Origin: Chitinophagaceae bacterium
GTDB lineage: Bacteria > Bacteroidota > Bacteroidia > Chitinophagales > Chitinophagaceae
Assembly: GCA_947447265.1 (NCBI GenBank)
Contig: CANFKC010000001.1
Location: forward strand, 124,001 to 188,000
DNA length: 64,000 bases
Reading direction: 5' to 3'
Translations under genes and position numbers: made by a program
Notes under the pieces: model-generated
Told to the model about the DNA's origin: nothing
The model's input: only the letters and a program-made list of their open reading frames with translations
The model's database searches: none
Shown: one piece after another, positions 10,700 through 39,582 of the stretch
Layout: each line of letters begins with the position of its first letter
Numbering within the stretch: position 1 is the stretch's first letter

Positions 10700-12283
10700 T
10701 TAATTTAAATTAAATATCAACGCACCCAGATCCCTTACTTTGCCATCGGGGCCAACAGCCTTGATGTTTTCAAGATACACCCTGTCGCCTGGCTTTACTT
10801 TGCCTTGCAGCGATGCTACCAGTGCGTTATCCATAAACTTAGCACCCTTGCCACCTGCTGGCATTTTTACCAGTATTTCAGGCACATAGTCACCACCCTT
10901 AGGAAGCATAGAGAACTTGAATTCAATAATAGTGAATTTGGTATCGAATTCGAAATTTTCCATAACAGCAAGCGGAGCAACAGCAGCTTTGAACATACCT
11001 GCAGACATTGGACCACCGGTTTTGCCTAACAATTTAGCAATTGGATTAGGGATTGTTTTAACACGAATAATAGATGTAGAAACTTTTACCGGAGCACCAT
11101 CTTTATTCTTACTCTTAGCCATAATGTCTACTGCGAAAGAAGTTGATGGCGTAGTGCACCTGATAGCGAAATGGCCGTTAGAACCTGTTTGGGTAGCTCC
11201 CGGAGGTAACTGAAGATATACATCTTCAACAGCATAGCCAGCAGCACTAACTGTTACAGGGTTATCAACACCAATATAGAATACGTTCATCTTGTCTAAC
11301 TGCAATGACGCACCGGTAGTACCTACCATGTAATCGAAACTCCAGTCTCTTGTAATTAAACCCTGAACTGTTTCCAGCATTACTTTACCTTTTACAGTCT
11401 GTAAACCAGTACCCGCTGCAACAGTTTCCCAAGGAATAGCACCATTTACCGCATCTTTCTTAGAACCACCACCCTGTGTAATAACAGCAGTTGGCTTCAA
11501 AGTCCTGTTAAATGCAGCCAACAATATGGTCGCTTCAATTTTATCGCCCTGTAAAGCGTAAGTAGTTTTAGGAACTGCTACTGCAGCCATTGTATCGAAC
11601 ACGAACTCTTTAGTGTGTGCTAATTCAGAAAGGCGTTTGATAACCATGTTCTCACTGCTTCTTACGTCATTCTGGAATTTAGAAAACAATGCAAGAGATG
11701 CGATTGCTGGCATGTGCTCAAAGTTTGCAATATTCCAGTCACCTGTAGGATTGTGCTCGTTCTTCTTAGGAACTTCAATGCTCAAAGGCATTGTTTTGCC
11801 GAAAGTTGCAGTATCTTCTGGTGGTAACTGAGAAAGCAGATACTTCCTCATTTCCAAAATCTTCTTTTGAACAGTGTCACCACCTTTCTTTTCAACTAAC
11901 AAAGTTGTAGTCGCATCGATGTTATCCATCTTATCAGGGAAAGTTGAATCTTCCTTGCCATAACCACCAGCGGCCATAACGACTCTCTTCTTCCAATCAT
12001 TGAAGTACTTCATCATTTCGTCAGACTTAGCAACGATGTCGTCGGCCTGCAATTTGTATTTGTGTACCTTTTCGTATTGACCCTTTACGTTTTCACTTTC
12101 CTTAATTGCAGCATAAACCTCAGCCGTCTTGGCATCGATAGATCTGTTCGACTTATCGATACTCGTGCTTAACGTTTTGAATGCGTTAAGAATTTCATTT
12201 GATACGTTGAGTGCCAGCAGTGCGGTCAAAACCAGATACATCAGGTTGATCATAATTTGCCGCGGCTCCTTAGGTATAGACAT
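10700..12283 (-). CDS. gldM: Gliding motility / type IX secretion motor protein GldM
   Basis: 527 residues. A short cytoplasmic N-terminus with PRQIMINLMYLVLTALLALN forms the single inner-membrane helix at about residues 8-30. GldM helices pair with GldL to make the proton-driven motor. A long periplasmic part follows, with an early coiled-coil-like segment (residues about 35-130) and beta-rich domains reaching towards the GldKN ring. It ends with GALIFNLN. The spacing to gldL (58 bp) and gldN (26 bp) fits one operon. Confidence 0.95.
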   Translation of the reverse strand: MSIPKEPRQIMINLMYLVLTALLALNVSNEILNAFKTLSTSIDKSNRSIDAKTAEVYAAIKESENVKGQYEKVHKYKLQADDIVAKSDEMMKYFNDWKKRVVMAAGGYGKEDSTFPDKMDNIDATTTLLVEKKGGDTVQKKILEMRKYLLSQLPPEDTATFGKTMPLSIEVPKKNEHNPTGDWNIANFEHMPAIASLALFSKFQNDVRSSENMVIKRLSELAHTKEFVFDTMAAVAVPKTTYALQGDKIEATILLAAFNRTLKPTAVITQGGGSKKDAVNGAIPWETVAAGTGLQTVKGKVMLETVQGLITRDWSFDYMVGTTGASLQLDKMNVFYIGVDNPVTVSAAGYAVEDVYLQLPPGATQTGSNGHFAIRCTTPSTSFAVDIMAKSKNKDGAPVKVSTSIIRVKTIPNPIAKLLGKTGGPMSAGMFKAAVAPLAVMENFEFDTKFTIIEFKFSMLPKGGDYVPEILVKMPAGGKGAKFMDNALVASLQGKVKPGDRVYLENIKAVGPDGKVRDLGALIFNLN

Positions 12284-12341: not shown

Positions 12342-13181
12342 TTAACGTCCCTGCATTGCAGACAGCATATTACCATAGATCTGGTTAAGGCTGGTAAGAT
12401 TCTTAGATAAGAGCGCAATCTGGTCTTTAGTATTAGTTGCGTCTTTAGCACTTGCTGCCATTGCATCAGATGCACTAACCAGGTTGCTGTAAAATTTATT
12501 CATTGCTTTCAGGTGGTTGTTTGCATCCTGCAATTCAACTTCATATATCTGGTTAAGAGTACCTAAGTTTTTAGATAATACTTTAACCTGATCATGGAAC
12601 TTAGCAGTATCGCCGGCAGCATCATTAAATGCACCCATTGTTTTAGTAGCACCTACGAAAGTATTTTTCATCTGGCCCAAAGCATCAGCTGCTTCACGAG
12701 CACCTTTAGAATAAGCATCAGTTGAAGAAGTGATGTTGGTAATGTCTTTCATCTGCTCAACAGTTTTACCAAAATTGGTAAAGTTCTCGTTCAGACGCTT
12801 CATGCTTGTAGGTGTGATCTGAGCTTCTTCCATCATCTTGTCTAAAGACTTCATTGGAGACTCACCTGGTTTACCTGGAACTTCGTGTGCAGCAGTACCA
12901 TGATCTTTCAATCCCTTACGGAAAGCTTCAACGTGTGGATTTTCAGTTATACCCGGGTAGAAACGTTCCCAGTAGTAATCGCTATGAGGTGGGAGCAGAC
13001 CAAGCATCGCAAAGATAACCGCTTCCGTAATCATACCAGAAGTAAGCATGAGACTTGCACCTGGCCAGTGCTGAATTTTAAAGAGCGCACCCATAAGTAC
13101 CACAGATGCTCCAAGACCGATGATTAGATTTTTTAGGTACTTACCTGAGTTCGATTCAAAAAAGATTACTATCGGATTCAT
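12342..13181 (-). CDS. gldL: Gliding motility / type IX secretion motor protein GldL
   Basis: 279-residue cytoplasmic-membrane partner of GldM. Two transmembrane helices lie near residues 18-36 (NLIIGLGASVVLMGALF) and 43-62 (LMLTSGMITEAVIFAMLGLL), separated by the conserved KIQHWPGA loop. The rest is cytoplasmic and rich in helical segments. It ends with two similar stretches (VLSKNLGTLNQIYEVEL and LLSKNLTSLNQIYGNML) that look like an internal repeat. The helix pair forms the motor stator-like ring with GldM. Confidence 0.95.
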   Translation of the reverse strand: MNPIVIFFESNSGKYLKNLIIGLGASVVLMGALFKIQHWPGASLMLTSGMITEAVIFAMLGLLPPHSDYYWERFYPGITENPHVEAFRKGLKDHGTAAHEVPGKPGESPMKSLDKMMEEAQITPTSMKRLNENFTNFGKTVEQMKDITNITSSTDAYSKGAREAADALGQMKNTFVGATKTMGAFNDAAGDTAKFHDQVKVLSKNLGTLNQIYEVELQDANNHLKAMNKFYSNLVSASDAMAASAKDATNTKDQIALLSKNLTSLNQIYGNMLSAMQGR

Positions 13182-13238: not shown

Positions 13239-14519
13239 TTATCCTTTCTTAACAGCGCGCCTGTTCCTTAAAGCTGGCTCAGCATAAGTAATTACGCAAC
13301 GGAAGCCGATATAAGGTTTTGCAGTATCTGCATATTCGAAATCGCGAGTACCAACCTGCAGGAAATAAGCAACATCCCTCCAGCTACCACCACGAACTAC
13401 TTTTCTTGTAGTTTCGATAGCATCGCCAGGCCTGTTAGCCCTCTTTACTTCAGAGTTGATATCAGACATCTGGTCGTAAGAACCATTTGCATAAGCAGAA
13501 TTGGTCCACTCTGATACGTTACCTGACATGTTCTTCAGACCGTAATCGTTAGCTGCATATTTATCAACCGGAACTGTGTACAAACCACCATCAGCAGAAT
13601 AGTTACCGCGCTGAGGTTTGAAGTTAGCTAAATAGCAACCTTTTTTATTGATGATGTAAGGACCACCCCATGGATAAGGAGATTCGTTCCTGCCACCGCG
13701 TGCTGCCCACTCCCACTCTGCTTCTGAAGGAAGACGGAACTTGCTTTCGGTATACATTTTTGATTTATCGCGCTCTGAAACCCAGATTTTAGTACGCCAA
13801 TCGCAGAATGCGTTAGCCTGATACCAGTTAACACCTACAACAGGGTAAGTATTAAAGCCCTGGAACCAGAAGTACTGGCGGGAAATTGGTTCATTGTAAG
13901 AATACATGTATTGACGAACCCAAACAGTAGTATCAGGATATGCCTGAATAGTTACCGGATAAATGAACGCTTTTTCATTGTATGTTTTGCTATTTGCTGC
14001 CCTAGAGGCATTCTGGTAGTCAAAAGTCTGGTAAGAATATTTCAATTCCTTGGTATTGATCATCTTAATACCCCAGCCTGATTGGTCAGCCTGAATGTAC
14101 ATAGATGCCAATTGATCCTGAACGTCAGCGTCTTTCCAGTTGATCCTCTTATTCCAGTCCAGCTTAGTGCTGCCGTCCGGAAGATCTTTTACGTACTGAA
14201 GAATGGTACGAGCTATAGAATCCTTTACCCAGTTGGTAAACTGGCGGTATTCCTGGTTCGAAATTTCGGTCGCATCCATGTAAAAACCTACAGTTTGTAC
14301 AGTATGAATGTTCGCATCGTTTCTACCACGTACATCTTCGTCACTTGCTCCCATTTTAAATGTTCCTGATGGAACATAAACCATACCTATCGGCACAGGA
14401 GCCTTATAATTCATCCTGCTTTGATCACCTATTAATTGGCCATTTGAGCCCCTTTGCCCGCAGCTTGCCGCGAATGCAAGCAAAGCTAAAGAGAAGACTT
14501 TCAGGGATGTTCTTTTCAT
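13239..14519 (-). CDS. gldK: Gliding motility / type IX secretion lipoprotein GldK
   Basis: 426-residue outer-membrane lipoprotein that forms the periplasmic ring with GldN. I place the start at 14519, where the product opens with KR, a hydrophobic stretch and the lipobox FAASC, giving an acylated cysteine near residue 20. Upstream in-frame codons would bury this signal. The body is a formylglycine-generating-enzyme-like domain: GMVYVPSGTFKMGA, RLPSEAEWEWAARGG, GNVSEWT and VVRGGSWRD. GldK proteins use this fold structurally. First gene of gldKLMN. Confidence 0.95.
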   Translation of the reverse strand: MKRTSLKVFSLALLAFAASCGQRGSNGQLIGDQSRMNYKAPVPIGMVYVPSGTFKMGASDEDVRGRNDANIHTVQTVGFYMDATEISNQEYRQFTNWVKDSIARTILQYVKDLPDGSTKLDWNKRINWKDADVQDQLASMYIQADQSGWGIKMINTKELKYSYQTFDYQNASRAANSKTYNEKAFIYPVTIQAYPDTTVWVRQYMYSYNEPISRQYFWFQGFNTYPVVGVNWYQANAFCDWRTKIWVSERDKSKMYTESKFRLPSEAEWEWAARGGRNESPYPWGGPYIINKKGCYLANFKPQRGNYSADGGLYTVPVDKYAANDYGLKNMSGNVSEWTNSAYANGSYDQMSDINSEVKRANRPGDAIETTRKVVRGGSWRDVAYFLQVGTRDFEYADTAKPYIGFRCVITYAEPALRNRRAVKKG

Positions 14520-14615
14520 ACTACTATCTGTTATTTTAGCAATTTGGCAAGTAAAAATGCTGGTTTCAACTGTACACAACTATTGAAACCGACGCACAAT
14601 ATTCAAAGATTTTTC

Positions 14616-21153: not shown

Positions 21154-24100
21154 CTACTCTTTAATCAACCTCTGAACAACTTTCTGATCGCCTGAAGTAA
21201 GCTCAACCATGTAAACGCCTGCTGCAAAATTGCTCAGCTGTACGCTGATACTGCCATTTTGCTTAGTGCCGATATTCTGGTTGTAAACACTTACACCTGA
21301 AAGATCAAGAACTCGTACGCTTACTGCTTCAGCTTTACCGTTTGTGAAACCGATAGTTACTTCGTCAGTAGCAGGGTTTGGAGTCATAGTAACCTGCAGA
21401 CCCTTGTTATTAGCAACGGTAGAAGGAGCCATGCTTAACTCAAACCTTTGTTCGCCCTGTGTTTGCTTATCTGAAGAGATAGAGAACCTGTATTCAGTAC
21501 CTTGTTGTAACAATACAAATTGTTTCAACAGTTTGTCATGCAGGTAAACTTTACCCCCTTCAGGAAGAGCAACGTTTTCAGACTTGATAATGAAATCCTG
21601 AGCAATGTTACTTTGGATACCCAATGGTATTGCACTTTCAGCCTGGTAAGGACGGCCATCGATTGTCAATTTCTTGTTGTCAGCTGACAAGCTATAGAAA
21701 TTAAGATCAGCAGGGCTGTTTGGCTTAGTTGCGTCATAGTTACCATCTTCTTCGTTAGTAGCATCATCGTTAAACTTGATGTTTAACATATCCCAAGGAT
21801 GATAGTTTGCATCATAGATAGTTAATGCAACATAATCAGGACTAGCTTTCAACACACTAGTTGTTGATGTGGCATTCTTCATGCTTTCCGTGAACGTCAT
21901 AGTTGCAGCATTGTAAGCAGCACGTACCTGGAAGCAAGCGTTAGCCTGCAAGTAGTAAGGAACTGCAGTAACAGAAGGAATTGCCTGAGCCTGGAACTGA
22001 CCGGCAGAACCAAGGAACGGATTCCAGATATAGTATGCTGCACCAGTTACCGCACCGGCAACTTTCGCGTTGAATACACTTGTACCGATATCAACCGGAG
22101 AAGCGTAAGGGTTACCTACCATGTTGTATTCCTGGTTAGCGGCTGAACCCTTAGCAAGAACAACTGTCTGAGTGCCCTGGTTCAACACACCTGACTGTGC
22201 AACGGTAGTTGAAGATGGAACGTAAGCACCATAGCCTAAACCTTCGCCCTTAGCACCACGGAAGTACAAACGAATACCCTGATATTGATGTATCCTGTTA
22301 CTGTCAGCGGTAACATAAGCGCTTGTGAAAGGCCTCCAACCTGGATCAGATGCAGCAGCTGAGTTACCAAACAAAGGATCGTAACGGAATGCAGATGGAG
22401 CATTAGAAGCAGTAGTAGTGAAACCGTTAGAAGCACCACCGGCACCAGTTACGTCTATGTAATTCTGAATCTGGTCAAGACCAATGTAGTTGCTGAACGG
22501 ATGAGCCCAGAAACGATAAGCACGACGACCACCTGGTATCCACTGAGTTACTTTAACATTACCTGTTATTGCACTACCAGAAGCAGGAACCGGTGCAAGA
22601 CGCGCAGTGCCGAAACTATCTGAGTAGAATACAACGCTATCACCTGTAGCAAGCGTACCAGCAGTAATAGTAGCAACACCCTTGATTGTGAACCTTGAAG
22701 CAACGCTTACAGTAGCACCGCTTGGGTTGTTCAACTCAAAGTTGTTAACAGAACCAATACCAGAGATAGTCTGACTACCTGCTGAACTATTCAGAACAAC
22801 CGAACCAGCACCGGTAATAGAACCGCTGTGTGTCATGTTACCCTTAATATTCAGGTTACCGCCATTGCCAATTGCAACAGTAGCACCAGAAGCGATAGTG
22901 ATGTTATTCGCAGTACCACTTGCAGAAGCAGCAATTACTGGGCTGTAAGTAGTTCCTGAAGGAATAATTACATTATCAGTTGCTGTTGGTATGAAACCGC
23001 AAGACCAGTTAGTTGTTGTATTCCATTCAGTTTCAACACCCGTAGTACCACCTACCCATGTCATTGGAATAGGATTGATAACAGTATCGATATTGATAGA
23101 ATCAGAACATACCGGATTGTGTACATCATACAATGTGTAAGTAGTTGCAGTAGTTAACGCACCTGTTGTAAGTGTGTAAGTACCGCCAGTTAATGTAGCA
23201 TTAATGATAGAACCGTGGTTGATCTGGTAAGAAACTGTAGCACCAGAAGTACCGGTAAATACAATACTTGTTGAATAACCAGAGCAAGGAGGAACTGCTG
23301 AAGTAATGCTACCTGCAGGAACAGCGTAAAGGGTCAGCGTAAAGCCATATGATGTGCTAGAGCAAGGACCGTTTGAAACTGTTATTGTTCCGGTATAAAC
23401 ACCTGCGATACTTGTTGAAGGTATTGTAAGAGCGATAGCAGAACCAGACAGTGTTGCACCTGATACGTTGCTGAAGCCATCAGTGATAGCAGCAGAACCC
23501 CATGTGATACTGTATGTTGTAGGAGAACCTGTAGGGCTTGAGAACGAAATGTTAGCTGATGTAGCTGGCTGGCAAAGACTTGGGTTAGCTCCTAAAGTAA
23601 TAGAAGGAGTTGTGTTAACCGTGTCAGCACCTGTCTGCCATACATTGCAACCACCTACTGAAGCTAATACTGTATAAGCTCCTGTAGTGTACTGAGTACC
23701 GAACGTTACACCAGTACCTGTAGAACCAGTAACAGGGCTACCTGATACTACACTGTTCTTATACATCTGGTAGCTAACACCTGTTTCAGAGTTAGAAGTA
23801 CCAACTGTAACACCAGCAGCAGTACAACCATTACCACCGGTAACACTGTAAGCAACAGGAGAAACTGCGATAGTAGAAGAACCTGTCATTGTAGTTTGGC
23901 AACCACCTGCTGTAGCAGTACCAACAACTGAGTAAGAACCAGCGCCATAAACTGTACCGAAAGATATTGCAGAAGCAGTACCAGCCACAGGGCTGCCAAC
24001 AGCTGATGCACCAAGGTATAATTGATAGTTAACACCAACATCAGAACCAGATAAGCCAATTGTCACACCTGAGTATGAGCAACCTGAACCACCTGTCATT

Positions 24101-27100
24101 GTGTATGTGTTAGGGCTGTTGTAGATAATGCAAGAACCTGTCATTGTAGTCTGGCAACCGCCTGTAATAAGCGTTGCTACTATAGTGTAGGTACCAGTAA
24201 CGGTCATCGTACCAAAGCTGATTGAAGAACCTGTACCTGTTACAGGACTGCCAACCGGAGTTGCACCTCTGTATAACTGGTAAGTAGCGGTTGCCTGCGA
24301 GTTTGGCAATGTAATAGTAGTACCTGCAGTACAACCTGTAGCAGGAGCTACCGTGTAAGCTGTTGGTGGCGTGTAAACGTTAACTGTATTAGTAGAAACG
24401 TTACCCGCTGTACAACCGCTGTTTGCATCAACTGAAGTTACAGTGTAGACAGTAGTAGAAGTGATACCTGTTGACACCGGATTAGCGATGTTGGTAGCGC
24501 TTAAGCTACTACCTGGAGTCCATGTGTAGCTGTAAACCGGACGTTCAAACCTCCACGCTGTACCAGCAACAGTGTTGTTGATAGTATAGTTGACGTTGTT
24601 TTGACCAGGAACGGTTGTAGACAAGCTATAACCTGGGTTTTGAATACCGCATACCATGTTGTAGGTACTTGCTGTATTTGCTTTTGAAATGAACATTTCA
24701 ATAACGTTGCTGGTTTCATACAGTACGATCTGTCCCGTGTTAGGAGCGCCGCCTGAAAAATCACCATAATTGTTATAGTTCACTACAAACTTACGGTTTG
24801 GCGTTGTGCCGATAGTTCCATAAGTAATACCTGAACCATTCAAATCATGCCAGAATAAAGCAATGGCACCTGGAACAGCACTCGTAGGGAAGCTTGCAAC
24901 AGTATAAGATGCACTTGAACCACCGATAGAGATGAAACCATTGGTACAGATACTTATTGTACTGTAAGCAGTACCATAGTAGTTAAATGAGAACGGAATA
25001 GTAGCCGAACTAGCAACATCATCGCCTGAAGGACCTGCAGTAGAACTGGTAAGCGTATACGGAGTGTATGGAATAGCCATAACGGTATAGTTAGTAGAAC
25101 CAGATGCAGGAGAAGTAACACTAACACTAAGGTTAGAAGTACCGCCCGGGCAGATGCTAGCCGGAGTCGCTGATACAGACACTACCGGAGTAGTATCTAC
25201 ACTAGCCCAATATGAAGTAGATGTAGTACAACCTGACTGCGTAGCAGATACTGAATAGATACCTGAACGGTTGGTTGCAGCACTGCCTATTGTAGCAGTA
25301 GCAGATGTTGAAGTAAAGCTCAACGGACCAGACCATGAATATGTAAATGAACCAGAACCTGTAGTATTAGCTGTTAAGCTTAACGTACCACCGCTACATA
25401 CAGTAGCAGAGCTGATAGATACAGCAGATCCGTTTACAGTCATAGAAGCAGTAACCGGAGAACCGCAACCTGTGCTATAAGTAATAGTTACAGTACCAGA
25501 AGTCATACCGGTAACAACACCAGTACCAAATCCGATTGAAGCGATTGATGGGTTAGACGACGTCCATGCACCACCAGAAATTGCATCAGTTAAAGTAGTT
25601 GTAGCAGTCGCACAAACTGATGTAGCACCAGTTATTGAAGATGGACCGCTGCTACCTACCGCTACTGTCATTGTAGTAGAGCAGCTACCGATAGCATAAG
25701 TAACCGTTTCTGTACCAACAGTGGTAGCAGTGTAAAGGTCACCGGTTGTAGCAGAGATAGTAGTACCTGTAGCAGAACCTGATACTGACCATGTACCACC
25801 AGATACTGTATTGCTGAAGTTGTTAACACTTGCAGTACAAACTGATGATAAACCAATGATAGCAGAAGGAGTGCTGTTAGTTGTGAATGTTACTGTTGCA
25901 GCAGAACCGCAACCTGTGCTGTAGGTAATAGTACAAGTACCTGCTGACATACCAGTTACGGTACCAGTAGTAGTAGTAGCCGTAACTACCCTTGCTATTG
26001 TTGTATCAGAACTTGTCCATGTACCACCCGGAGTACTATTAGCTAAAGTACTTGTAGCACCAACGCAAGCGTTAGCGGTACCAGTAATAGTACCAGGAGC
26101 AGCATTAGTAGTCCATGTAGTGCTAACTGCAGTACAACCTGAAGTTGTATACAATATAGAACATGTACCAGGTGCACCACCCGTTACAACACCCGTTGTA
26201 GGGTTTACAGTTGCGATAGCTGTGTTAGAACTAGACCATGTACCACCAGATACTGCGTTACTCAACGTTGAAGTTGAGCCAGAACAAGCACTTGGTGTAC
26301 CAGAGAACGCGCCACCTGATGGGTTAGCAGTGATCAACTGGTTTGATGATGTAGCAGAACCACCTGAAGCAGTACAAGTTAATACGCAATTGTAGTAGGT
26401 ATTAGTTGCAACTGAAGGCGCATAAGTATAGTTTGTCGCACCAGAGATAGCAGTATAAGTACCACCCGATGTAGCTGAAGACTGCCACTGGTAAGTTAAA
26501 CCAGTAACGCCAACTGCAGCTGTAGGATACATACTTGTAGATACCGGAGAGCAACCTGTTGTAGGTGTTGCAGAAACAGCACCTGCTGTAGGCGTACCTG
26601 AGCAAGCAACAGGAGCAATTACGTTAACCTTGTAGTCGCGGCAATCACCGTAGCTGATAGCTGTAGTAGGACATGGATTCATTGAAGGATATGCGCTGAA
26701 ACCACAGCAAGCATACTGAACCTGTACCCTCATCCTGTGATAACCAGGTGTTGCAGTAGAAGGAATAGTAATAGAAACAGCCTGAGCAGGTGTAGCAAAG
26801 TAGTTATAACCACCTACACTTTCAGATGATGCAAAAGAACCATCATCGTTATAGTCAATCCATATCTGACTAACCATACTGCTGTAGTATGTGCCGCCTG
26901 TTGTAATAGTACTTGTAAAAGTATTACCACGTAAGAAGCCAACAGAAGTAGATGAAGTCAGATCTTCCCATCCTGAACCAGAACATGCAGAAGCATCAGC
27001 AATAGAACCAGATGTACCGGTTACTGCAAACTGAGCATACATGCTGTAAGAAGAACAAGCAGCAGAAGCTGAACCATAAGTTGGAGTACAAGAAGATGCT

Positions 27101-30100
27101 GGTAAAGCCCATGTCGCAGTAGTTGTGTTCGTATTAGCAGAAACGCCTGAATAAGAACAGGTAACTATGCAACGATAATCAGTAGATGATGAGATACCGG
27201 TAAAGCTATAGGTAGCCAATGTAGCACCGGTAATGTTAGACCATGAACCTGCACCTGCAGCAGAAGACTGCCATTGGAAACCAATGCCACCTGAAGCAGA
27301 GTAACCTGAACATGTAAGTGTGAAAGTAGTACCACCTGAACCTGTTGTAGGAGATACTGCAGCAGTACCTGATGTTGGTGTACCAGAGCAAGGACTTGCA
27401 CCTGTACCATTTACACTAGAACATACAGCAGAAGCCAAGCCACCACCTGATACACAAATAGTACCAGAGAATGAACCCGCACTTGCAGGAGAGAACCTTA
27501 CACCAATTGTACCTGCAGAAACAGTAGCACCGGTGTAAGCTATTGTATAGCTGGAAACCCATGCAGAACCATTGTATACTTCGAACGCTGAACTAGAGCT
27601 GGTAACGGTAAGGTTACTTGCTGCAGGTGTAAGGTAAGATGCATTAAGAGTCAGCGTGCTTGTAGCAGATGAAGTACCTGTAGTTGTAGGTGAGAACGAA
27701 ATTGACGTAGGAGTCAACGTTGCCGCCGGAGGAGGAGGCAGGATGTTGATTCTGTAATCACGAGCATCACCATAAGAGATCGCTGTTGTAGGGCAAGGGT
27801 TGATGCTTGGGTAAGCAGCACCACCGCAACATTGGTAGTTAGTCACTTCCCTCATCATGTGGCTGCCCAGAGTTGCAGATGATGGTGTAGCAATTGTAAT
27901 AACCGGTGCAGATGTACCAAAACTACCACCGCCGCCTATGCTTTCTGAAGCTGCAAAAGTACCATCATCATTATAATCTATCCAGAACTGTGTATGCAAG
28001 CTTCCAAAGTAACTTCCAGACATAGCCAGGGTTACATTATAAGTAACACCAGCCGTTATAGAACAAGACAATGAAGTCCTGTCTTCGTAGCTTGTACTGG
28101 TACAAGCAGTACCATCGCTTATAGAACCAGAAACACCAACCAATGTACCTATACTACCTGACATTGGATATGAGCTACAAGGGTTAGCAAATGCTGGTAC
28201 GCAATAGTTAGAGATACGAGCAACAGATGAGTATTGGTTAAGACCAGAATACGTACAAGTAACCAGGCAATAGTAATACATGCTCGATGTTAAACCAGAG
28301 AATGTATACGTTGCATTGGTTGCACCGGTAATATTAGTCCAGGCTGAACTTCCTGTAGTCGACTGCATCCACTGATAAGTAAGACCAAGGCCAATTGAAG
28401 AACCTGACAAACTTAACGTGAATGAAGTAGCAGAAGTACCTGCACTCGGCGTAGTTACTGTAGTACCTGCAGTTGGTGTACCAGAACATGCGTTAGCACT
28501 TGTACCAGTTACTGGTATGTTCAATGGAGTTAAACCACCACCTGAAAGAACAACGTTACCTGAGTAAGCACCTACAGTTGATGGAGCGTTAAACTTAACG
28601 AATACGCTGGTAGCAGCAACGGTAGCTGAAGAGTAAGATATTGCATAAGAAGAAACGTATGTACCACCTGAAGTGCTGCAAACTGAGAAGTTTGTTGGAG
28701 CAGTTACAGTAAGCGCATCAGTTGACGGTGTTAAGAACGAACCGGTAACAACTGTTGACTGTGCAGTAGATGTTGTACTTGCAGCAATAGTACCAAAGCT
28801 AAGCGACGTTGGTGTAGCTGAAGACATTGGAGGAGGGTTCTGGATGATTACATAGTAATCACGCGCATCACCATACGATATAGCAGTTGTAGGGCAAGGG
28901 TTAACACTTGGATAACCAGCACCACCGCAACAAGCAGCATAGTTACCAACTATCCTGGCCCTGTGCATACCTAATGCAGCACCGGAAGGTACTGTCATGC
29001 TGAAGGTAGGAGTTGATGTAGATATTGAACCATAGGCGTTACCACCCATGCTTTCACTGCTTTCGAAAGTACCGTTATCGTTATAGTCGATCCAGAACTG
29101 TGTACCGAAACTTGTATAGTAAGTAGTACTTACGTTTTCAGTAACAGTGTAAGAAATGCTCCTGTATAAGGTGCAACCGATTGAAGAAGAATAATCGATG
29201 TAGCTGGAACCTGTACATGCGTTATTATCAACAATAGAACCTGAACCACCTACTAAAAGCTTGACAGATGTAGTCATCGGGAATGAGCTACAAGCGTTAG
29301 CAAATGTTGGGGTACAGCTTGAAGCTGGTAATACCCAAGTAGCTGTAACCGGAGATGTAGTAGCTGATGAACCTGAGTATGAGCAGGTAACAACACAACG
29401 GTAGTCTGTGCTTGAAGTGATACCGGTAAATGTATAGGTAGATAAAGTAGCACCTGCTAAAGTTGTCCATGTACCTGAACCCGATGGGTTACGATATTCC
29501 CACTGGAAGCCGATACCACCTGATGCAGTATAGCCAGTACATGTAAGTGTAAAGGCAGTAGAAGCAGCGCCTGTAGTAGGAGAAACCGCTGCAGTACCTG
29601 CAGTTGGAGTACCAGAACAAGCAGTAGCGCCTGTACCGTTTACACTGGCACAAACTGCTGAAGCAAGACCACCACCTGATACACAGATAGTACCCGAGAA
29701 GGTACCGGTAGAACCTGGAGTAAACCTTACTGGTATAGTGCCTGCAGAAACTGTAGCAGCTGAGTAAGAAATACTGTAGCTGGTAGAAACCCATGCAGAA
29801 CCATTATACATCTCAAAGTTTGAGTTGGAGCTGGTTACAGTAAGAGCACCTGTAGAAGGCGTTAAATAAGTCGCATTCAATATAACGTTGGTTGTTGCAG
29901 AAGATGAACCTACCAATGTTGGAGAGAATGATATTGAAGTTGGAGCAACTGTAGCTGCTGGCGGAGGAGGAATCACATTTACTGTGTAATCACGTGCATC
30001 ACCATAAGATATTGCAGTTGTAGGGCAAGGGTTAACGCTTGGATAAGCAGCACCACCGCAACAAACCGCATAGTTACCGACTAACCTCATTCTGTGTGTA

Positions 30101-33100
30101 CCGGGAGTGGCAGTTGCAGGTAAAGTAAGCGAAATAACCGGCAGATAAGTACTGAAGCTGCTACCACCACCAATTGACTCAGATGAAGAGAAAGTTCCGT
30201 CATCGTTGTAATCGATCCAGACTTGTACGCCAAAACTTGGGTAGTACGAAGTGGTAAGATTTAAAGTTGGAGAATAAGTAGAACCAGCCCTCAATGTGCA
30301 AGACAAAGAAGTCATGTCTTCATAACTCGTACTTGTACATGATGTAGCATCAGTAATGGTACCTGAATAACCATTCAATGTACCGATACTTGCATTCATT
30401 GGGAAAGAGCTACATGCGTTAGCAAATGTTGGTAAGCAGTAAACTGCACAACCTACGTTTGATGATGTAGCAGATGCACCAGAATAAGAACAAGTAACCA
30501 CGCACTGGAACCACCTTGCAGAAGTAAGACCTGATACAGAATAGGTAGTATTGGTAGCACCAGTAATATTGGTGTACGTACCGCCTGCTGATGTAGCAGA
30601 CTGCCACTGGTAGCTAAGGCCTAAACCTACTATAGTAGCGCCTGAAAGGCTAAGGTTAAATGTAGTAGCAGAAGTACCTGCAACAGGAGATGAAGCAGCA
30701 GTACCACCTGAAGGCGTACCTGAGCAAGCATTTGCGCCGATACCGGTAACCGCTGTATTGATAGCAGCACCTAAGCCACCACCAGTTACAGTAACGTTGC
30801 CGCTATAAACACCTGCTGTTGAAGGAGCTACAAACTTAACATAAATACTGTTAGATGTTATAGTTGAAGCTGAGTAAGAAATAGTGTAAGAAGTAGCGTA
30901 AGTACCACCTGCAGTGCTGCAAACCTGGTAATTACTAGGTGCAGTTACAGTAACAGTACCTGTTGCAGGTGTAAGATAAGCCGCTGTAAGCACTGTATTT
31001 AAAGCAGAAGATGTAGTACTTGTAGCGATAGTACCGAAGTTCAATGAACTTGGAGTAGTAGAGCCATAAGGAGGAGGATCTTGTATAGTTACAGTGTAAT
31101 CACGTGCATCACCATAAGAAATTGCTGATGTAGGGCAAGGGTTAACTGATGGATAAGACGAATAACCGCAGCAGCCATAGTTACCAACAATCCTCATCCT
31201 GTGCAAGCCTGGAGTGGCTGTTGAAGGAACCGTCATGTTGAAAGTAGGCGTAGCCGTAGTTGGGAAGTTAATACCACCCATGCTTTCTGATGTTTCAAAA
31301 GTACCGTTATCGTTAAAATCTATCCACAACTGTGTAGTGAAGCTACTGTAGTAAGATGTAGTCAGGTTTTCAGTAACTGTATAAGTTAAGCTCCTGAACA
31401 AAGTACAAGTTAAAGAACCGGTATAGTCTTCATAGCTGGCAGAAGTACAGCCTGTAACATCACTGATAGAACCAGAACCACCAATTAAACTCTTAATAGA
31501 GCAATTCATTGGATAAGAACTACATGGGTTTGCAAATGCAGGTGTGCAGCTAGAAGCCGGTAGAACCCATGTTGCAGTAGTAAATGCAGTTGTAGCTGAT
31601 GAGCCAGAAGCAGAACAAGTCACAACGCATTTGTAGTAAGTTGTTGAAGCTAAACCAGAGAAAGAATAAGTAGCCAGTGTAGCACCTGAAATGTTAGTAT
31701 AAGTACCACCCGATGTGCTCGCAGACTGCCATTGGAAGCTGATGCCACCTGCTGCAGTATAACCAGAACATGTAAGTGTGAAAGTAGTTGCAGCAGCACC
31801 TGTAGTTGGAGAGCATGATGCAGTACCTGCAGTTGGCGTACCAGAACAAATTGATGCACCTGTACCTGTTACTGAAGCGCATACTGCTGATGATAAACCA
31901 CCACCAGTTACACAGATAGTACCAGAGAATGAACCAGCAGAACCCGGTGTAAACCTTACAGGGATAGTACCTGCAGCAACTGTAGCACCGGTATAAGCAA
32001 TAGTATAGCTTGATACCCATGCAGAACCACTATACACTTGGAAGTTAGTGTTAGAGCTTACAACCGTAAGGCTGCTTGAAGCCGGCGTTAAATAAGAAGC
32101 ATTTAATATAAGGTTGGTGGTAGATGAAGAAGTACCAGTTGTTGTTGGTGAGAATGCAATTGAAGTTGGAGCCAACGTAGCTGCCGGAGGAGGTGGCAGA
32201 ATGATGATCTTGTAATCACGCGCATCACCATAAGAAATAGATGTTGTAGGGCATGGGTTGATGCTTGGGTAAGCAGCACCGCCGCAACATTGGTAGTTAG
32301 TTACTTCCCTCATTATGTGAGTACCCACTGTTGCTGTTGTTGGTATAGCAATAGTAACTACCGGTGAAGATGAAGAGAATGCACCACCGCCGCCTACGCT
32401 TTCTGAAGTAGCGAAAGTACCATCATCATTATAATCTATCCAGAACTGTGTATGCAAGCTACTGTAGTAACTTCCAGACATAGCCAGGCTTACATTATAA
32501 GTAACACCACCTGTTAAAGAGCAAGACAATGAAGTCATATTTTCATAGCTTGTACTTGTACATGCAGAGCCATCGCTTATAGTACCTGTAGTACCTATCA
32601 ATGTGCCAATACTGCCGGACATTGGATAAGAGCTACAAGGGTTAGCGAATGCAGGTAAGCAATAAATTGCAACACCAACAACGTTCGATGCTGCGCTTGC
32701 GCCTGAATAAGTACAACCCACAACACACTTGAAGTAAGTAGCCGAAGTAAGGCCCGATACCGTATAAGTAGCATTGGTTGCACCTGTAATATTAGAGTAA
32801 GTACCACCTGATGTGGTAGCAGACTGCCATTGGTAAGTTAAACCTAAACCGATAGATGTACCGGAAAGGCTGAACGTAAATGAACTACTTGAAGTACCGG
32901 TTGGCGCTGACACGCTTGCAGTACCCGGAGTAGGAGTGCCGCTACATGCATTTGCGCTTACACCTGTAAGGGATGCACAAACTGCAGATGACAAACCACC
33001 ACCTGATACACAAACTGTACCAGTGTAAGTACCCGGTGTACCTGGCGCTACAAAATGTACATATACGCTATTAGCTGATACTGCGCTACCTGAATAAGAG

Positions 33101-34941
33101 ATAGTGTAAGAGCTGGTATAAGTACCACCCGCTGTTGCACAAACCTCGTAGTTAGCTGATGCAGTTACGGTAAGCGTACCGCTAGAAGCAGTAAGGAACG
33201 CTGCGTTTAACACAGTAGCCTGTGATGCTGACGTAGAGCTGGTACCGATAGTACCGAAGTTCAACGTAGTTGGCGCTAAAGATGCCATTGGAGGAGGCGC
33301 TGCGATCGTAACTGAATAGTCACGGCAATCACCATAGGAAATTGCAGATGTAGGGCAAGGGTTCATGCTCGGGTATGCAGACGCGCCGCAGCACTGATAG
33401 TTACCTACAATCCTCATTCTGTGTAAACCTACCGCAGCAGTAGCTGGAATTGCCAGAACCGCTGTTGGAGTAGGCGTACTTGAATAACCATTACCACCTA
33501 CACTTTCAGAAGTTTCGAAAGTACCGTTATCGTTAAAGTCAATCCAAACCTGCTCATTAAAGCTACTGTAATAAGTAGTACTAGTATTTAATGTAGCGGT
33601 ATAAGAAAGAGATTGATAAAGTGTACAAGTCATAGAAGCAGAATAATCTTCATAGCTTGAACCAGTACATGCAGTGTTATCAGTAATAGAACCTGTAGCA
33701 CCTACAAGGTTTTTGATAGATGTAGTCATTGGATAAGAACTACAAGCATTTGCAAATGCTGGTGTGCAAGATGACGCAGGAATAGCCCATGTAGCCAATA
33801 CAGGGGATGTAGTAGCAGAAGAACCTGATGCAGTACAAGTAACAAGACACCTGTAGTAGGTGTTAGATGTCATACCTGAAAAACTGTAAGATGAAGTAGT
33901 AGCACCTGTAATATTAGTATAGGTACCGCCTGCACTTGCAGAAGACTGCCACTGGAAAGTAATGCTGCCTGCACTTGTATAACCAGTGGTCGATAATGTA
34001 AAGGTAGTACCTGTAGAACCAGTAGTAGGGCTCACACTGCCGGTACCTGCTGTTGGGGTACCAGAGCAAACTGCCGCTGAAGTACCGCTAACTGATGCGC
34101 AAACCGCTGATGACAAACCGCCACCACTTACGCAAACAGAACCAGAATAAGAACCTGCAGAAGCCGGAGCAACAAAATGTATTGGAATAGTTGCTGCAGA
34201 AACGCCTGCGCCAGAGAAAGATATAGTGTAGCTGCTAACCCACGCACTGCCATTATAAACTTCAAAGTTTGATGGAGCAGTTACAGTAAGGTTACCTGTT
34301 GATGTAGAAAGATAAGATGCACTAAGAACTGTATTTAAAGTACCTGATGTAGAACCTGCAAGTACCGCGCCGAAAGCACGTGAACTTGGTGTAAGAGATG
34401 CTGTTGGAGGAGGTGTTGCAACGTTGATCGTATAATCACGGTCTTCACCATAATAATAGCCGCCGCAAGGGTTGATTGAAGGATAGTGTGCACCACCATA
34501 GTTGGCATCATTAACAGCAACCCTCATACGACGGTTACCTGGGTAAACACCACCCGCAAGGGTAATATTAAATATGTGGTTACCAGTACCGGATGTAAAT
34601 CCACCTACACTTTCCGAAGCATCAAATGTTCCGTCATAGTTAAAGTCAATCCATATCTGGCCGGAACAAGAATATCCTCCCGGAGTGTTAACCGTAACCG
34701 CGTAGGTGCCGCCCATGTACATGGTGCAGGAAAGCGACGTCTTGTCAAGGTATCCACTACCATTGCAAGCTGCAGCGTCGCTTATAGAACTGGATACGCC
34801 AGTTGCGTTAAAGGAGCCGACGCGCATACCATAGTACGAACACGAGCCGTACGCATAGCTAAACGTGGGTGTGCAGTAGGTTTGCGAGTAACCCGCAAAA
34901 CTGCCTATACACAGTAAGATTAGTAAAATCAGTTTTCTCAT
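21154..34941 (-). CDS. Giant secreted GEVED/Ig-repeat surface protein with T9SS sorting domain
   Basis: One uninterrupted frame of 4,595 residues from the ATG at 34941, chosen because it gives a clean signal peptide (LILLILLCIGSFAGYSQ). Eight modules of about 370 residues follow. Each has a GEVED-type domain (WIDFNDNGTF loop, CCG...NPCP cysteines, ending ISYGDxRDY near residues 167, 540, 906, 1279, 1649, 2026, 2395 and 2767). In the first seven an abnormal-spindle-like strand domain (SGGGLSSAVCASV) and an Ig-like domain with FQWQSS come next. After residue 2780 come Ig/BIG2-like repeats, a propeller-edge-like domain near 3330, three short YQLY repeats (3550-3770), an adhesin-type tail and a type A T9SS domain (last 80 residues). 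It is probably a cell-surface adhesin or matrix protein; the ligand is unknown. Confidence 0.9.
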   Translation of the reverse strand: MRKLILLILLCIGSFAGYSQTYCTPTFSYAYGSCSYYGMRVGSFNATGVSSSISDAAACNGSGYLDKTSLSCTMYMGGTYAVTVNTPGGYSCSGQIWIDFNYDGTFDASESVGGFTSGTGNHIFNITLAGGVYPGNRRMRVAVNDANYGGAHYPSINPCGGYYYGEDRDYTINVATPPPTASLTPSSRAFGAVLAGSTSGTLNTVLSASYLSTSTGNLTVTAPSNFEVYNGSAWVSSYTISFSGAGVSAATIPIHFVAPASAGSYSGSVCVSGGGLSSAVCASVSGTSAAVCSGTPTAGTGSVSPTTGSTGTTFTLSTTGYTSAGSITFQWQSSASAGGTYTNITGATTSSYSFSGMTSNTYYRCLVTCTASGSSATTSPVLATWAIPASSCTPAFANACSSYPMTTSIKNLVGATGSITDNTACTGSSYEDYSASMTCTLYQSLSYTATLNTSTTYYSSFNEQVWIDFNDNGTFETSESVGGNGYSSTPTPTAVLAIPATAAVGLHRMRIVGNYQCCGASAYPSMNPCPTSAISYGDCRDYSVTIAAPPPMASLAPTTLNFGTIGTSSTSASQATVLNAAFLTASSGTLTVTASANYEVCATAGGTYTSSYTISYSGSAVSANSVYVHFVAPGTPGTYTGTVCVSGGGLSSAVCASLTGVSANACSGTPTPGTASVSAPTGTSSSSFTFSLSGTSIGLGLTYQWQSATTSGGTYSNITGATNATYTVSGLTSATYFKCVVGCTYSGASAASNVVGVAIYCLPAFANPCSSYPMSGSIGTLIGTTGTISDGSACTSTSYENMTSLSCSLTGGVTYNVSLAMSGSYYSSLHTQFWIDYNDDGTFATSESVGGGGAFSSSSPVVTIAIPTTATVGTHIMREVTNYQCCGGAAYPSINPCPTTSISYGDARDYKIIILPPPPAATLAPTSIAFSPTTTGTSSSTTNLILNASYLTPASSSLTVVSSNTNFQVYSGSAWVSSYTIAYTGATVAAGTIPVRFTPGSAGSFSGTICVTGGGLSSAVCASVTGTGASICSGTPTAGTASCSPTTGAAATTFTLTCSGYTAAGGISFQWQSASTSGGTYTNISGATLATYSFSGLASTTYYKCVVTCSASGSSATTAFTTATWVLPASSCTPAFANPCSSYPMNCSIKSLIGGSGSISDVTGCTSASYEDYTGSLTCTLFRSLTYTVTENLTTSYYSSFTTQLWIDFNDNGTFETSESMGGINFPTTATPTFNMTVPSTATPGLHRMRIVGNYGCCGYSSYPSVNPCPTSAISYGDARDYTVTIQDPPPYGSTTPSSLNFGTIATSTTSSALNTVLTAAYLTPATGTVTVTAPSNYQVCSTAGGTYATSYTISYSASTITSNSIYVKFVAPSTAGVYSGNVTVTGGGLGAAINTAVTGIGANACSGTPSGGTAASSPVAGTSATTFNLSLSGATIVGLGLSYQWQSATSAGGTYTNITGATNTTYSVSGLTSARWFQCVVTCSYSGASATSSNVGCAVYCLPTFANACSSFPMNASIGTLNGYSGTITDATSCTSTSYEDMTSLSCTLRAGSTYSPTLNLTTSYYPSFGVQVWIDYNDDGTFSSSESIGGGSSFSTYLPVISLTLPATATPGTHRMRLVGNYAVCCGGAAYPSVNPCPTTAISYGDARDYTVNVIPPPPAATVAPTSISFSPTLVGSSSATTNVILNATYLTPSTGALTVTSSNSNFEMYNGSAWVSTSYSISYSAATVSAGTIPVRFTPGSTGTFSGTICVSGGGLASAVCASVNGTGATACSGTPTAGTAAVSPTTGAASTAFTLTCTGYTASGGIGFQWEYRNPSGSGTWTTLAGATLSTYTFTGITSSTDYRCVVTCSYSGSSATTSPVTATWVLPASSCTPTFANACSSFPMTTSVKLLVGGSGSIVDNNACTGSSYIDYSSSIGCTLYRSISYTVTENVSTTYYTSFGTQFWIDYNDNGTFESSESMGGNAYGSISTSTPTFSMTVPSGAALGMHRARIVGNYAACCGGAGYPSVNPCPTTAISYGDARDYYVIIQNPPPMSSATPTSLSFGTIAASTTSTAQSTVVTGSFLTPSTDALTVTAPTNFSVCSTSGGTYVSSYAISYSSATVAATSVFVKFNAPSTVGAYSGNVVLSGGGLTPLNIPVTGTSANACSGTPTAGTTVTTPSAGTSATSFTLSLSGSSIGLGLTYQWMQSTTGSSAWTNITGATNATYTFSGLTSSMYYYCLVTCTYSGLNQYSSVARISNYCVPAFANPCSSYPMSGSIGTLVGVSGSISDGTACTSTSYEDRTSLSCSITAGVTYNVTLAMSGSYFGSLHTQFWIDYNDDGTFAASESIGGGGSFGTSAPVITIATPSSATLGSHMMREVTNYQCCGGAAYPSINPCPTTAISYGDARDYRINILPPPPAATLTPTSISFSPTTTGTSSATSTLTLNASYLTPAASNLTVTSSSSAFEVYNGSAWVSSYTIAYTGATVSAGTIGVRFSPASAGSFSGTICVSGGGLASAVCSSVNGTGASPCSGTPTSGTAAVSPTTGSGGTTFTLTCSGYSASGGIGFQWQSSAAGAGSWSNITGATLATYSFTGISSSTDYRCIVTCSYSGVSANTNTTTATWALPASSCTPTYGSASAACSSYSMYAQFAVTGTSGSIADASACSGSGWEDLTSSTSVGFLRGNTFTSTITTGGTYYSSMVSQIWIDYNDDGSFASSESVGGYNYFATPAQAVSITIPSTATPGYHRMRVQVQYACCGFSAYPSMNPCPTTAISYGDCRDYKVNVIAPVACSGTPTAGAVSATPTTGCSPVSTSMYPTAAVGVTGLTYQWQSSATSGGTYTAISGATNYTYAPSVATNTYYNCVLTCTASGGSATSSNQLITANPSGGAFSGTPSACSGSTSTLSNAVSGGTWSSSNTAIATVNPTTGVVTGGAPGTCSILYTTSGCTAVSTTWTTNAAPGTITGTANACVGATSTLANSTPGGTWTSSDTTIARVVTATTTTGTVTGMSAGTCTITYSTGCGSAATVTFTTNSTPSAIIGLSSVCTASVNNFSNTVSGGTWSVSGSATGTTISATTGDLYTATTVGTETVTYAIGSCSTTMTVAVGSSGPSSITGATSVCATATTTLTDAISGGAWTSSNPSIASIGFGTGVVTGMTSGTVTITYSTGCGSPVTASMTVNGSAVSISSATVCSGGTLSLTANTTGSGSFTYSWSGPLSFTSTSATATIGSAATNRSGIYSVSATQSGCTTSTSYWASVDTTPVVSVSATPASICPGGTSNLSVSVTSPASGSTNYTVMAIPYTPYTLTSSTAGPSGDDVASSATIPFSFNYYGTAYSTISICTNGFISIGGSSASYTVASFPTSAVPGAIALFWHDLNGSGITYGTIGTTPNRKFVVNYNNYGDFSGGAPNTGQIVLYETSNVIEMFISKANTASTYNMVCGIQNPGYSLSTTVPGQNNVNYTINNTVAGTAWRFERPVYSYTWTPGSSLSATNIANPVSTGITSTTVYTVTSVDANSGCTAGNVSTNTVNVYTPPTAYTVAPATGCTAGTTITLPNSQATATYQLYRGATPVGSPVTGTGSSISFGTMTVTGTYTIVATLITGGCQTTMTGSCIIYNSPNTYTMTGGSGCSYSGVTIGLSGSDVGVNYQLYLGASAVGSPVAGTASAISFGTVYGAGSYSVVGTATAGGCQTTMTGSSTIAVSPVAYSVTGGNGCTAAGVTVGTSNSETGVSYQMYKNSVVSGSPVTGSTGTGVTFGTQYTTGAYTVLASVGGCNVWQTGADTVNTTPSITLGANPSLCQPATSANISFSSPTGSPTTYSITWGSAAITDGFSNVSGATLSGSAIALTIPSTSIAGVYTGTITVSNGPCSSTSYGFTLTLYAVPAGSITSAVPPCSGYSTSIVFTGTSGATVSYQINHGSIINATLTGGTYTLTTGALTTATTYTLYDVHNPVCSDSINIDTVINPIPMTWVGGTTGVETEWNTTTNWSCGFIPTATDNVIIPSGTTYSPVIAASASGTANNITIASGATVAIGNGGNLNIKGNMTHSGSITGAGSVVLNSSAGSQTISGIGSVNNFELNNPSGATVSVASRFTIKGVATITAGTLATGDSVVFYSDSFGTARLAPVPASGSAITGNVKVTQWIPGGRRAYRFWAHPFSNYIGLDQIQNYIDVTGAGGASNGFTTTASNAPSAFRYDPLFGNSAAASDPGWRPFTSAYVTADSNRIHQYQGIRLYFRGAKGEGLGYGAYVPSSTTVAQSGVLNQGTQTVVLAKGSAANQEYNMVGNPYASPVDIGTSVFNAKVAGAVTGAAYYIWNPFLGSAGQFQAQAIPSVTAVPYYLQANACFQVRAAYNAATMTFTESMKNATSTTSVLKASPDYVALTIYDANYHPWDMLNIKFNDDATNEEDGNYDATKPNSPADLNFYSLSADNKKLTIDGRPYQAESAIPLGIQSNIAQDFIIKSENVALPEGGKVYLHDKLLKQFVLLQQGTEYRFSISSDKQTQGEQRFELSMAPSTVANNKGLQVTMTPNPATDEVTIGFTNGKAEAVSVRVLDLSGVSVYNQNIGTKQNGSISVQLSNFAAGVYMVELTSGDQKVVQRLIKE
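26600..34900 (-). repeat. Eight tandem ~1.1-kb coding repeats inside the giant gene
   Basis: The DNA encoding the YGDxRDY motif recurs at about 34440, 33320, 32223, 31103, 29993, 28863, 27757 and 26640, a period of 1,097-1,130 bp. Alternate copies fall in two classes: those entered by PASSCTP and those entered by YCLPAF. The copies near 32.2 and 27.8 kb are the most alike at DNA level. Confidence 0.9.
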
Positions 34942-35029: not shown

Positions 35030-35512
35030 CTAGCCATAATTCTCTAATTTAGAAGGTGAAGAAATAGGAGAGAGGAGATGAGTAATCAACGACTTTGATT
35101 CGGTGAGGAGTACAAACGAAAAAAACCGGGAGCGTGAGCTGCCAGCCAAAACCTTTCCCGTAACTGTATTTCCATTGTGCTCGTCATAATTAGTATGAAT
35201 GCAGAAACCCGCATCAGGCGACACACCGTTATTATTATTTGTTATTGCTTGCAAATTGTTCGAAAGTATCCAACCAACGGAGCTGTTTAATAGGTAAGAG
35301 CAAAACAAGTTAGCAGAAATGTTTTGCATTCCCTGAACACGCTCGTTTACGCTATGTCTCAAATTGGTTGTGCCAATGACGACTTCCTCTTTACCCTTTT
35401 CCCCCTGGGTAAGGCCCGATGGCAGTCCATTGCCAGTAAGCTTCGCCTCACCGGCAAAACCCGCCATGCAAAAACTGCACATTAGAATGATGATTGAATA
35501 AACCTTTTTCAT
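35030..35512 (-). CDS. Small secreted protein of unknown function upstream of the giant gene
   Basis: 160-residue frame with a convincing signal peptide (KKVYSIIILMCSFCMAGFAG). The mature part has no recognised domain: a polar stretch GLTQGEKGKEEVVIGTTN, then asparagine-rich ITNNNNG, and a hydrophobic/serine-rich end. Its stop is 88 bp before the giant gene's ATG, so the two could share a transcript. No TAnnTTTG element stands close upstream. It may be a real leader-gene product or a decayed remnant of a longer protein. I do not recognise it. Confidence 0.42.
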   Translation of the reverse strand: MKKVYSIIILMCSFCMAGFAGEAKLTGNGLPSGLTQGEKGKEEVVIGTTNLRHSVNERVQGMQNISANLFCSYLLNSSVGWILSNNLQAITNNNNGVSPDAGFCIHTNYDEHNGNTVTGKVLAGSSRSRFFSFVLLTESKSLITHLLSPISSPSKLENYG

Positions 35513-36374: not shown

Positions 36375-36382
36375 TACATTTG
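36375..36382 (+). promoter_or_regulatory. -7 element for the sulfotransferase-like operon
   Basis: TACATTTG, 21 nt before the ATG at 36404. The next two paralogues have no such element and short gaps, so this promoter probably drives all three. Confidence 0.55.
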
Positions 36383-36403
36383 AAGAGGTCAAGAATCCGG
36401 CGA

Positions 36404-37933: not shown

Positions 37934-37983
37934 TTAATTACATTTATCGCCGAACACTTCCCCGGCTGAAACATCGCATTACT

Positions 37984-39522: not shown

Positions 39523-39582
39523 CTATTAATGCTCACCACGTTCCACAACCATTTTATGAGCGCCACAATCCACAAGCAAAAA

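Follow-up and report, generated by a model that had tools for sequence, protein, structure and literature searches.

We analysed a stretch of 64,000 nucleotides (the window) from the genome of a Chitinophagaceae bacterium (GenBank assembly GCA_947447265.1, a draft of 98 contigs; contig CANFKC010000001.1, positions 124,001 to 188,000), which belongs to the genus Flavipsychrobacter in the taxonomy scheme used. The gene under study occupies positions 21154 to 34941 on the minus strand and encodes a protein of 4,595 residues (462.8 kDa, pI 4.83), hereafter the giant, with an array of eight GEVED modules and a C-terminal sorting domain (CTD) of the type IX secretion system (T9SS). The initial annotation of this DNA had described an unbroken 13.8-kb frame, and this holds: the only stop is the terminal one, and the five other frames of the same stretch contain 204 to 512 stops. 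The strand assignment is added here; a plus-strand reading of 21154-34941 is full of stops and was ruled out.

The longest open frame starts 96 bases further upstream, at ATG 35037, giving a version of 4,627 residues, and residue numbers for the protein are counted from that codon throughout. When the gene is aligned with its orthologue at locus L021 (from a metagenome-assembled genome (MAG) described below), codons 1-32 differ 3/5/3 times at first, second and third codon positions, with no codon signature, and codons 33-54 differ 0/0/3 times. Over the next 1,245 aligned codons, the differences number 268/175/572, a third-position excess. On these grounds ATG 35037 was rejected as the true start, and 34941 is the better choice because the codon signature begins there and not in the 32 extra codons. 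Read from 34941, the protein opens with a putative Sec signal peptide (MRKLILLILLCIGSFAGYSQ, 34882..34941), which looks typical by eye. By this codon-position measure, selection acts at the protein level on the first ~1,300 codons, the part compared. The gene has no exact internal repeat of at least 50 bases (some reach at least 40), so that collapse of modules during short-read assembly is unlikely; this explanation was rejected.

Pfam GEVED (PF20009) matches the giant in eight stretches (322.5 bits against a gathering threshold of 24.4, E = 5e-98), and the module starts are spaced 369, 369, 371, 370, 374, 371 and 371 residues apart. Profiles of three segments resolve modules 1-7 into a GEVED domain (~155 residues), a middle domain (~115) and a third domain (~95), and module 8 into a GEVED and a third domain only. 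The eight modules and the ~370-residue period described initially are thus retained, but the last module is only ~260 residues long, without a middle domain. Module 1 (33769..34875), with the order GEVED, ASH-like and immunoglobulin (Ig)-like domain, is followed by module 2 (32662..33768), module 3 (31549..32661), module 4 (30439..31548), module 5 (29317..30438), module 6 (28204..29316), module 7 (27091..28203) and the closing two-domain module 8 (26308..27090). The three best matches of module 8 are the last GEVED modules of C6a and C5 and of MAG locus L023. Within module 3, the GEVED domain spans 32197..32661, the middle ASH/SPD-2-like domain of Ig fold 31852..32193 and the third, Ig-like domain, with the motif CSGTPTAG, 31552..31848.

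An AlphaFold2 model of module 3, made from 19 aligned modules, is almost entirely beta (mean predicted local distance difference test score (pLDDT) 89.7, predicted TM-score 0.65). In structural alignments with VIA-align, the middle domain superposes on the SPD-2 domain of CEP192 (7ptb; Z 11.3, root-mean-square deviation (rmsd) 2.8 over 103 aligned residues) and on the P. gingivalis protein 2qsv (Z 9.8, rmsd 2.6, 101 aligned). The third domain matches the Ig-like repeats of the phage tail protein 9c2d by profile (E = 2.1e-8). The GEVED-middle pair aligns with residues 724-1009 of the endo-beta-N-acetylglucosaminidase HS (Endo-HS) with a Z of 15.0; the rmsd of 20.6 over 209 residues indicates that GEVED and middle domain are placed differently in that enzyme. 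By sequence, a GEVED-only profile of 22 domains reaches Endo-HS weakly (E = 0.0029, residues 735-875). Since profile and structural alignment both arrive at this protein, there is probably a distant GEVED relative of known structure.

Comparison of the array with itself showed that its modules are not all of one kind. Identity is greatest at a lag of 740 residues, where 21.4% of positions are identical, versus 17.0% at a lag of 374. Modules 3, 5 and 7 (class A) are mutually 70-78% identical, the highest value being that between modules 3 and 7, modules 2, 4 and 6 (class B) 63-66%, and identity between the classes is ~50%. The odd/even split is the best of the 35 possible 3-versus-4 splits (63.8% within, 50.6% between), and shuffling of the seven three-domain modules gave permutation p-values of 0.018 for lag 2 and 0.029 for lag 4. 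In a maximum-likelihood tree of 36 three-domain modules, modules 2, 4 and 6 join module 2 of the orthologue (support 97/95), and modules 3, 5 and 7 join its module 3 (100/96). Module 1 pairs with the orthologue's module 1 (100/100), outside both classes, and for this reason we claim alternation for modules 2-7 only. These modules alternate between two classes, forming a super-repeat of ~740 residues that is shared with the related MAG. In a paralogue on contig C47, module 1 is sister to the even class (96/88) and module 2 to the odd class (91/97, below the joint mark of the tool). Modules 3 and 7 form a group that leaves out the orthologue's module 3 (97/92), and therefore one of the two copies arose, or was converted, late. 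A lag-4 periodicity was also considered for the two longer giants of this genome, with 11 and 10 GEVEDs; lag 4 has the highest mean identity in both, but the permutation p-values are 0.10 and 0.07 and it is not claimed.

All eight GEVED domains contain the motif W-I-D-[FY]-N-x-[DN]-G-x-F-x-x-x-E, represented in module 3 by WIDYNDDGTFATSE (32401..32442). The ligands of an EF-hand loop follow the pattern D-x-[DNS]-x-[DNS]-G-x-[hydrophobic]-x-x-x-E, and the acidic loop of the giant fits an EF-hand-like D-x-[DN]-x-[DN]-G-x-F-x-x-x-E in 8/8 modules, so that the calcium loop suggested initially has the expected ligand pattern at the level of the motif. We extended the comparison to 58 modules, namely 46 of the 47 GEVED matches of the genome (one on contig C26 was missed) and four each from loci L021, L023 and L025; as these were found with a profile of the giant's own eight modules, the conservation counts lean towards this type. 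Asp1, Phe8 and Glu12 are each present in 58/58 modules, position 5 is Asp or Asn in all 58, and Gly6 is found in 52. These loops probably bind calcium and would thereby stiffen the chain, to judge from the conserved pattern.

The cysteines are less regular than the loop. The initial annotation had proposed a fixed set per module, and as stated this was rejected: in the giant, which has 11 to 14 cysteines per module, the start Cys and the NPC cysteine occur in 8/8 modules, the CTL-type cysteine is missing from module 8 and the CCG pair from module 1 (7/8 each), and over the wider set the counts are 54 (start), 58 (NPC), 33 (CTL) and 14 (CCG pair). The 14 modules with a CCG pair come from the giant itself, from its orthologue and from paralogues on contigs C47 and C50, and only for this adjacent pair do cysteines co-occur cleanly. 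The cysteines may form disulfides. Neither DsbB (PF02600; controls matched in 6/14) nor VKOR (PF07884; controls matched in 3/14) was found in the genome, and other oxidants were not searched for.

Beyond the array, towards the C-terminus, lie Big_2-type repeats (25228..26325; Pfam Big_2, E = 1.8e-11, residues 2905-3270), in line with the Ig/BIG2-like repeats noted initially. They are followed by a single-copy nidogen-like (NIDO) domain (24523..25092, residues 3316-3505), matching PF06119 with E = 3.8e-4 and 20.9 bits, below the cut-off of 25. Its AlphaFold2 model (5 sequences) is mediocre (mean pLDDT 65.8) and has no Foldseek match at E 0.001; the best hit, a legume lectin at E 0.48 with a probability of 0.11, was not used as evidence. 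Relatives of this domain are N-terminal in other GEVED proteins (L013, 6844-7212; L014, 10837-11277; L025, 3473-3844), where it could be a tip domain. The YQLY repeats and the stretch following them (23068..24450, residues 3530-3990) are visible in the sequence, as annotated initially, but match no Pfam family; they have the same place in the other giants. A segment at 22588..23070 weakly resembles (19.0 bits) residues 884-985 of a chain named RemA, and residues 4277-4604, the RemA-like base (21226..22209), are homologous to the same chain (PDB 8gl6_D; phmmer E = 1.4e-8 for the full-length query and 1e-10 when only the C-terminal 648 residues are used). In the translocon study, the trapped substrate goes by the name RemZ, and RemZ is a homologue of RemA (PMC10994853). 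No lectin family is among the Pfam matches of the whole giant or its segments, some stretches of which match no family.

The protein closes with a type-A CTD (21157..21384, residues 4552-4627) that scores above the cut-offs of both TIGR04183 (45.6 bits versus 23, E = 5.1e-12) and PF18962 Por_Secre_tail (49.4 versus 27, E = 5.8e-13), which bears out the sorting tail seen initially. The type-B family TIGR04131 gave no match in the NCBIfam scan of the giant. Also as annotated, the window encodes GldKLMN, all on the minus strand: GldL (12342..13181), GldM (10700..12283) and GldN (9744..10673) match their own Pfam families, and GldK (13239..14579) was assigned by its FGE-sulfatase fold and its position. 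From the signal-peptide-like start, the CTD, the exporter genes in the window and the homology to the RemA chain, we infer that the giant is exported as a T9SS cargo. With at least 150 type-A CTDs, a count for which 150 of the 304 candidates were scored, the genome encodes a very large T9SS secretome; some of these domains belong to frames 2,000 to 6,000 residues long. One further match (G000:C1:127028-127240) coincides with the end of a 444-residue frame in the window (1915-3249, plus strand).

The nearest named records are three contigs (L021-L023) from a MAG that bears the label Flavipsychrobacter stenotrophus; one of the three contigs is identical to one in genome G009 of the same genus. 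Modules 1-4 at L021 correspond one-to-one to modules 1-4 of the giant, with 66%, 73%, 77% and 87% identity, the last figure covering 197 residues at the contig end. In its own genome, the giant is one of a family: GEVED is matched 47 times, and the longest frame concerned has 6,145 residues. Two paralogues, of 6,145 and 5,673 residues, contain eleven and ten GEVEDs; in both, every module is of the GEVED-middle-third kind except the last, a closing GEVED-third unit, and the array is followed by Big_2, nidogen-like, YQLY and RemA-like regions in the same order as in the giant. They also have an extra N-terminal stretch ahead of the array, which the giant lacks and whose scanned parts gave no Pfam match. 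The sister genome G004 has a 6,501-residue frame with twelve GEVEDs and the same C-terminal order. A two-domain module is last, and only last, in 4/4 complete giants (three in this genome, one in G004), and the incomplete L023 agrees. There are exceptions: an incomplete frame on contig 331 of G007 has a two-domain module in second place, and paralogues of 924 and 1,047 residues contain a three-domain module but none of the two-domain kind. The absence of the middle domain from the last module only is a tendency, not a law. Paralogues of 1,996, 2,259 and 2,796 residues consist of two-domain units only. A related locus on contig C50 (L016, 1948-9204, minus strand) holds neighbouring frames of 917, 1173 and 283 residues, two with one GEVED each; the 283-residue frame ends inside a middle domain, the next frame starts nearby, and one gene may have been broken by decay or by an assembly error.

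Every one of the 11 genus genomes contains GEVED, with between 1 and 52 matches. In the phylum, GEVED occurs in 94 of the 296 genomes sampled. A whole-module profile found some match in 105 of 117 family genomes, with at most 17 candidates per genome scored. Among the 133 matches listed from other genomes, 109 are limited to one end domain (GEVED in 42, the third domain in 67); a further 12 extend over the middle and third domains, 9 over GEVED with part of the middle domain and 3 over nearly the whole module (G332, 1-353; G367, 1-331; G006, 2-341). Within these listed matches, two-domain GEVED-third arrays appear common in the family and three-domain arrays are clear only in this genus. The middle domain may have been inserted into an older two-domain unit. 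An insertion confined to the genus is weakened as an account by the 12 middle-third pairs, and because such pairs exist elsewhere in the family, other routes for the middle domain remain.

Immediately upstream of the giant lies a frame of 160 residues with a signal-peptide-like start (35030..35512, minus strand), whose stop overlaps the upstream ATG at 35037. It is found in 3/11 genomes of the genus, namely in this one, in G009 (50% identity) and in G007 (36% over residues 1-107), and in both relatives it is likewise upstream of a GEVED frame. Compared with L021, its codons 1-20 differ 0/0/4 times, at third positions only, and later stretches differ about evenly (8/11/10, 32/22/35, 19/14/19 and 2/2/1). 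The product, which has no Pfam or NCBIfam match, looks secreted and fast-evolving by these measures. Beyond the giant's start, on the opposite strand, are three tandem frames of 512-521 residues (36380-41094, plus strand), the outer two of which match Arylsulfotransferase (PF05935; E = 4.6e-17 and 8.7e-11); the middle one gave no match in the NCBIfam scan, the only scan made of it.

The reading we favour, with a probability of about 0.6, is that the giant is a T9SS-exported, extended surface protein, with its RemA-like base and CTD at the cell and its array pointing outward, stiffened by calcium and adhesive through the GEVED faces or the nidogen-like domain. As a type-A cargo, it would leave the cytoplasm by the Sec pathway and then pass through the T9SS, ending up as a long all-beta fibre that stays on the cell surface or is shed from it. 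The base and CTD would sit at the cell, the CTD probably being cleaved off on export. Outward from the base would follow the YQLY, nidogen-like and Big_2 domains, and the seven GEVED-ASH-Ig units would make up the distal part, with a single GEVED-Ig unit closing the array towards the cell. Duplication of units would set the length of the array, which varies from 8 to 12 units across the paralogues, and calcium in the loop of each GEVED would probably make the chain stiffer. Ligands would most likely be bound by the repeated GEVED faces and the nidogen-like domain, and the most likely role is that of an adhesin or matrix component.

Such a role had been proposed initially. Two things make it plausible: the resemblance of the base to a gliding adhesin, and the definition of GEVED in fibrillar adhesins of the CshA type. 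A ligand-binding domain, however, could not be identified confidently. Several observations speak against adhesion. The Pfam scan found no CshA_NR2 in the giant, and PF18651 matched neither in this genome (0/1) nor in the phylum genomes (0/198), in a search in which no control matched and which is therefore no proof of absence. The nidogen-like match, as described above, is below the Pfam cut-off, with a model of 65.8 and no fold match at E 0.001. Finally, the secreted M4 protease EK4-1 also carries GEVED (PMC10178186), so GEVED alone does not mean adhesion.

The same data can be read differently. The array might bind nothing and only set the distance from the surface, with module number selected for length, an explanation that we consider unlikely. 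It would account for GEVED numbers of 8, 10, 11 and 12 over a constant C-terminal order, and the extra N-terminal stretch of the two longer giants, with no Pfam match in its scanned parts, is a possible tip for such a spacer to carry. However, in the giant itself the array directly follows the signal-peptide-like start, which leaves no separate tip to lift, and an acidic loop and NPC cysteine in 58/58 modules seem to go beyond what a spacer needs, unless its rigidity depends on calcium. Less probable still is a secreted extracellular-matrix or sheath protein that is released to the medium and crosslinked through its cysteines. The abundance of cysteines, 11 to 14 per module, would suit it, and a study of type-A CTDs (PMC12618676) indicates that proteins with this domain can be released; on the other hand, apart from the NPC and start cysteines, the cysteine columns of GEVED mostly vary between paralogues, and DsbB and VKOR were not found, although controls matched in 6/14 and 3/14 cases.

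That the gene is a decaying or unexpressed repeat, or an artefact of assembly, is largely refuted and very improbable. A gene of this length in a 98-contig draft, together with a related locus (L016) that looks broken, does invite the suspicion, but there is one terminal stop in 13.8 kb, no exact repeat of at least 50 bases, a third-position excess against the orthologue and a one-to-one correspondence of modules 1-4. Returning to the exported surface fibre, a broader version for the whole family can be put forward only tentatively, with low confidence. The genus would possess T9SS fibres of tunable length, each with a fixed base (two-domain closing module, Big_2, nidogen-like, YQLY, RemA-like region and CTD) and 8-12 GEVED units; an ASH-type middle domain would have joined a GEVED-Ig unit, and duplication of an A/B block would have produced a hetero-repeat fibre, in which modules of the two classes would have different binding partners or be turned to opposite sides.

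The strand, the plan of seven plus one modules, the two classes, the orthologue and the paralogue family are new here, and no paper on giant GEVED arrays was found in the literature searched, in which GEVED itself is scarcely named. Giants of differing array length form a natural series, which could show what GEVED does, whether calcium is needed and how the T9SS handles substrates of at least 460 kDa. This would matter less should the array prove to be an inert spacer.

Among known systems, the closest are the RemA/RemZ-type T9SS substrates of Flavobacterium johnsoniae (8gl6), with which the giant shares a type-A CTD, homology over the C-terminal ~330 residues and a weak similarity in the preceding segment. 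It differs in its 4,595 residues and GEVED array, in the confinement of the match to the C-terminal region and in matching no lectin family. SprB, too, is a giant T9SS cargo, and in this respect the SprB-type gliding adhesins resemble the protein described here. SprB, however, carries a type-B CTD according to PMC12618676, whereas the giant has a type-A CTD and no SprB-repeat family among its Pfam matches; an SprB-type identity was rejected, as TIGR04131 was not matched. The same study describes F. johnsoniae type-A CTD substrates as being handed to the PorV shuttle and then statically anchored or released. The grappling hook protein GhpA of Aureispira (9fly and related entries) is also of giant size, and the modelled module shows a middling structural similarity to it (VIA-align Z 9.0 to 10.0; Foldseek E = 1.5e-6 for 9fly), although Z values of this size are common among Ig folds. 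Searches by sequence gave no match to GhpA, whether with phmmer (E 1) or with profiles (E 10); the resemblance is structural, and nothing points to a hook.

CshA-type fibrillar adhesins have a Gram-positive anchor in their layout. What they have in common with the giant is the occurrence of GEVED within a long, multi-domain surface protein; in contrast to them, the giant has an array of eight GEVEDs and a T9SS CTD, and no NR2 was detected (nor in any control). The family (PF20009) was defined in these adhesins, downstream of the NR2 adhesive domain, and that study reports NR2 domains as always followed by GEVED (PMC10952558). The giant is thus best placed as a member of both the type-A cargo and the GEVED families, and it would act in the manner of a fibrillar adhesin.

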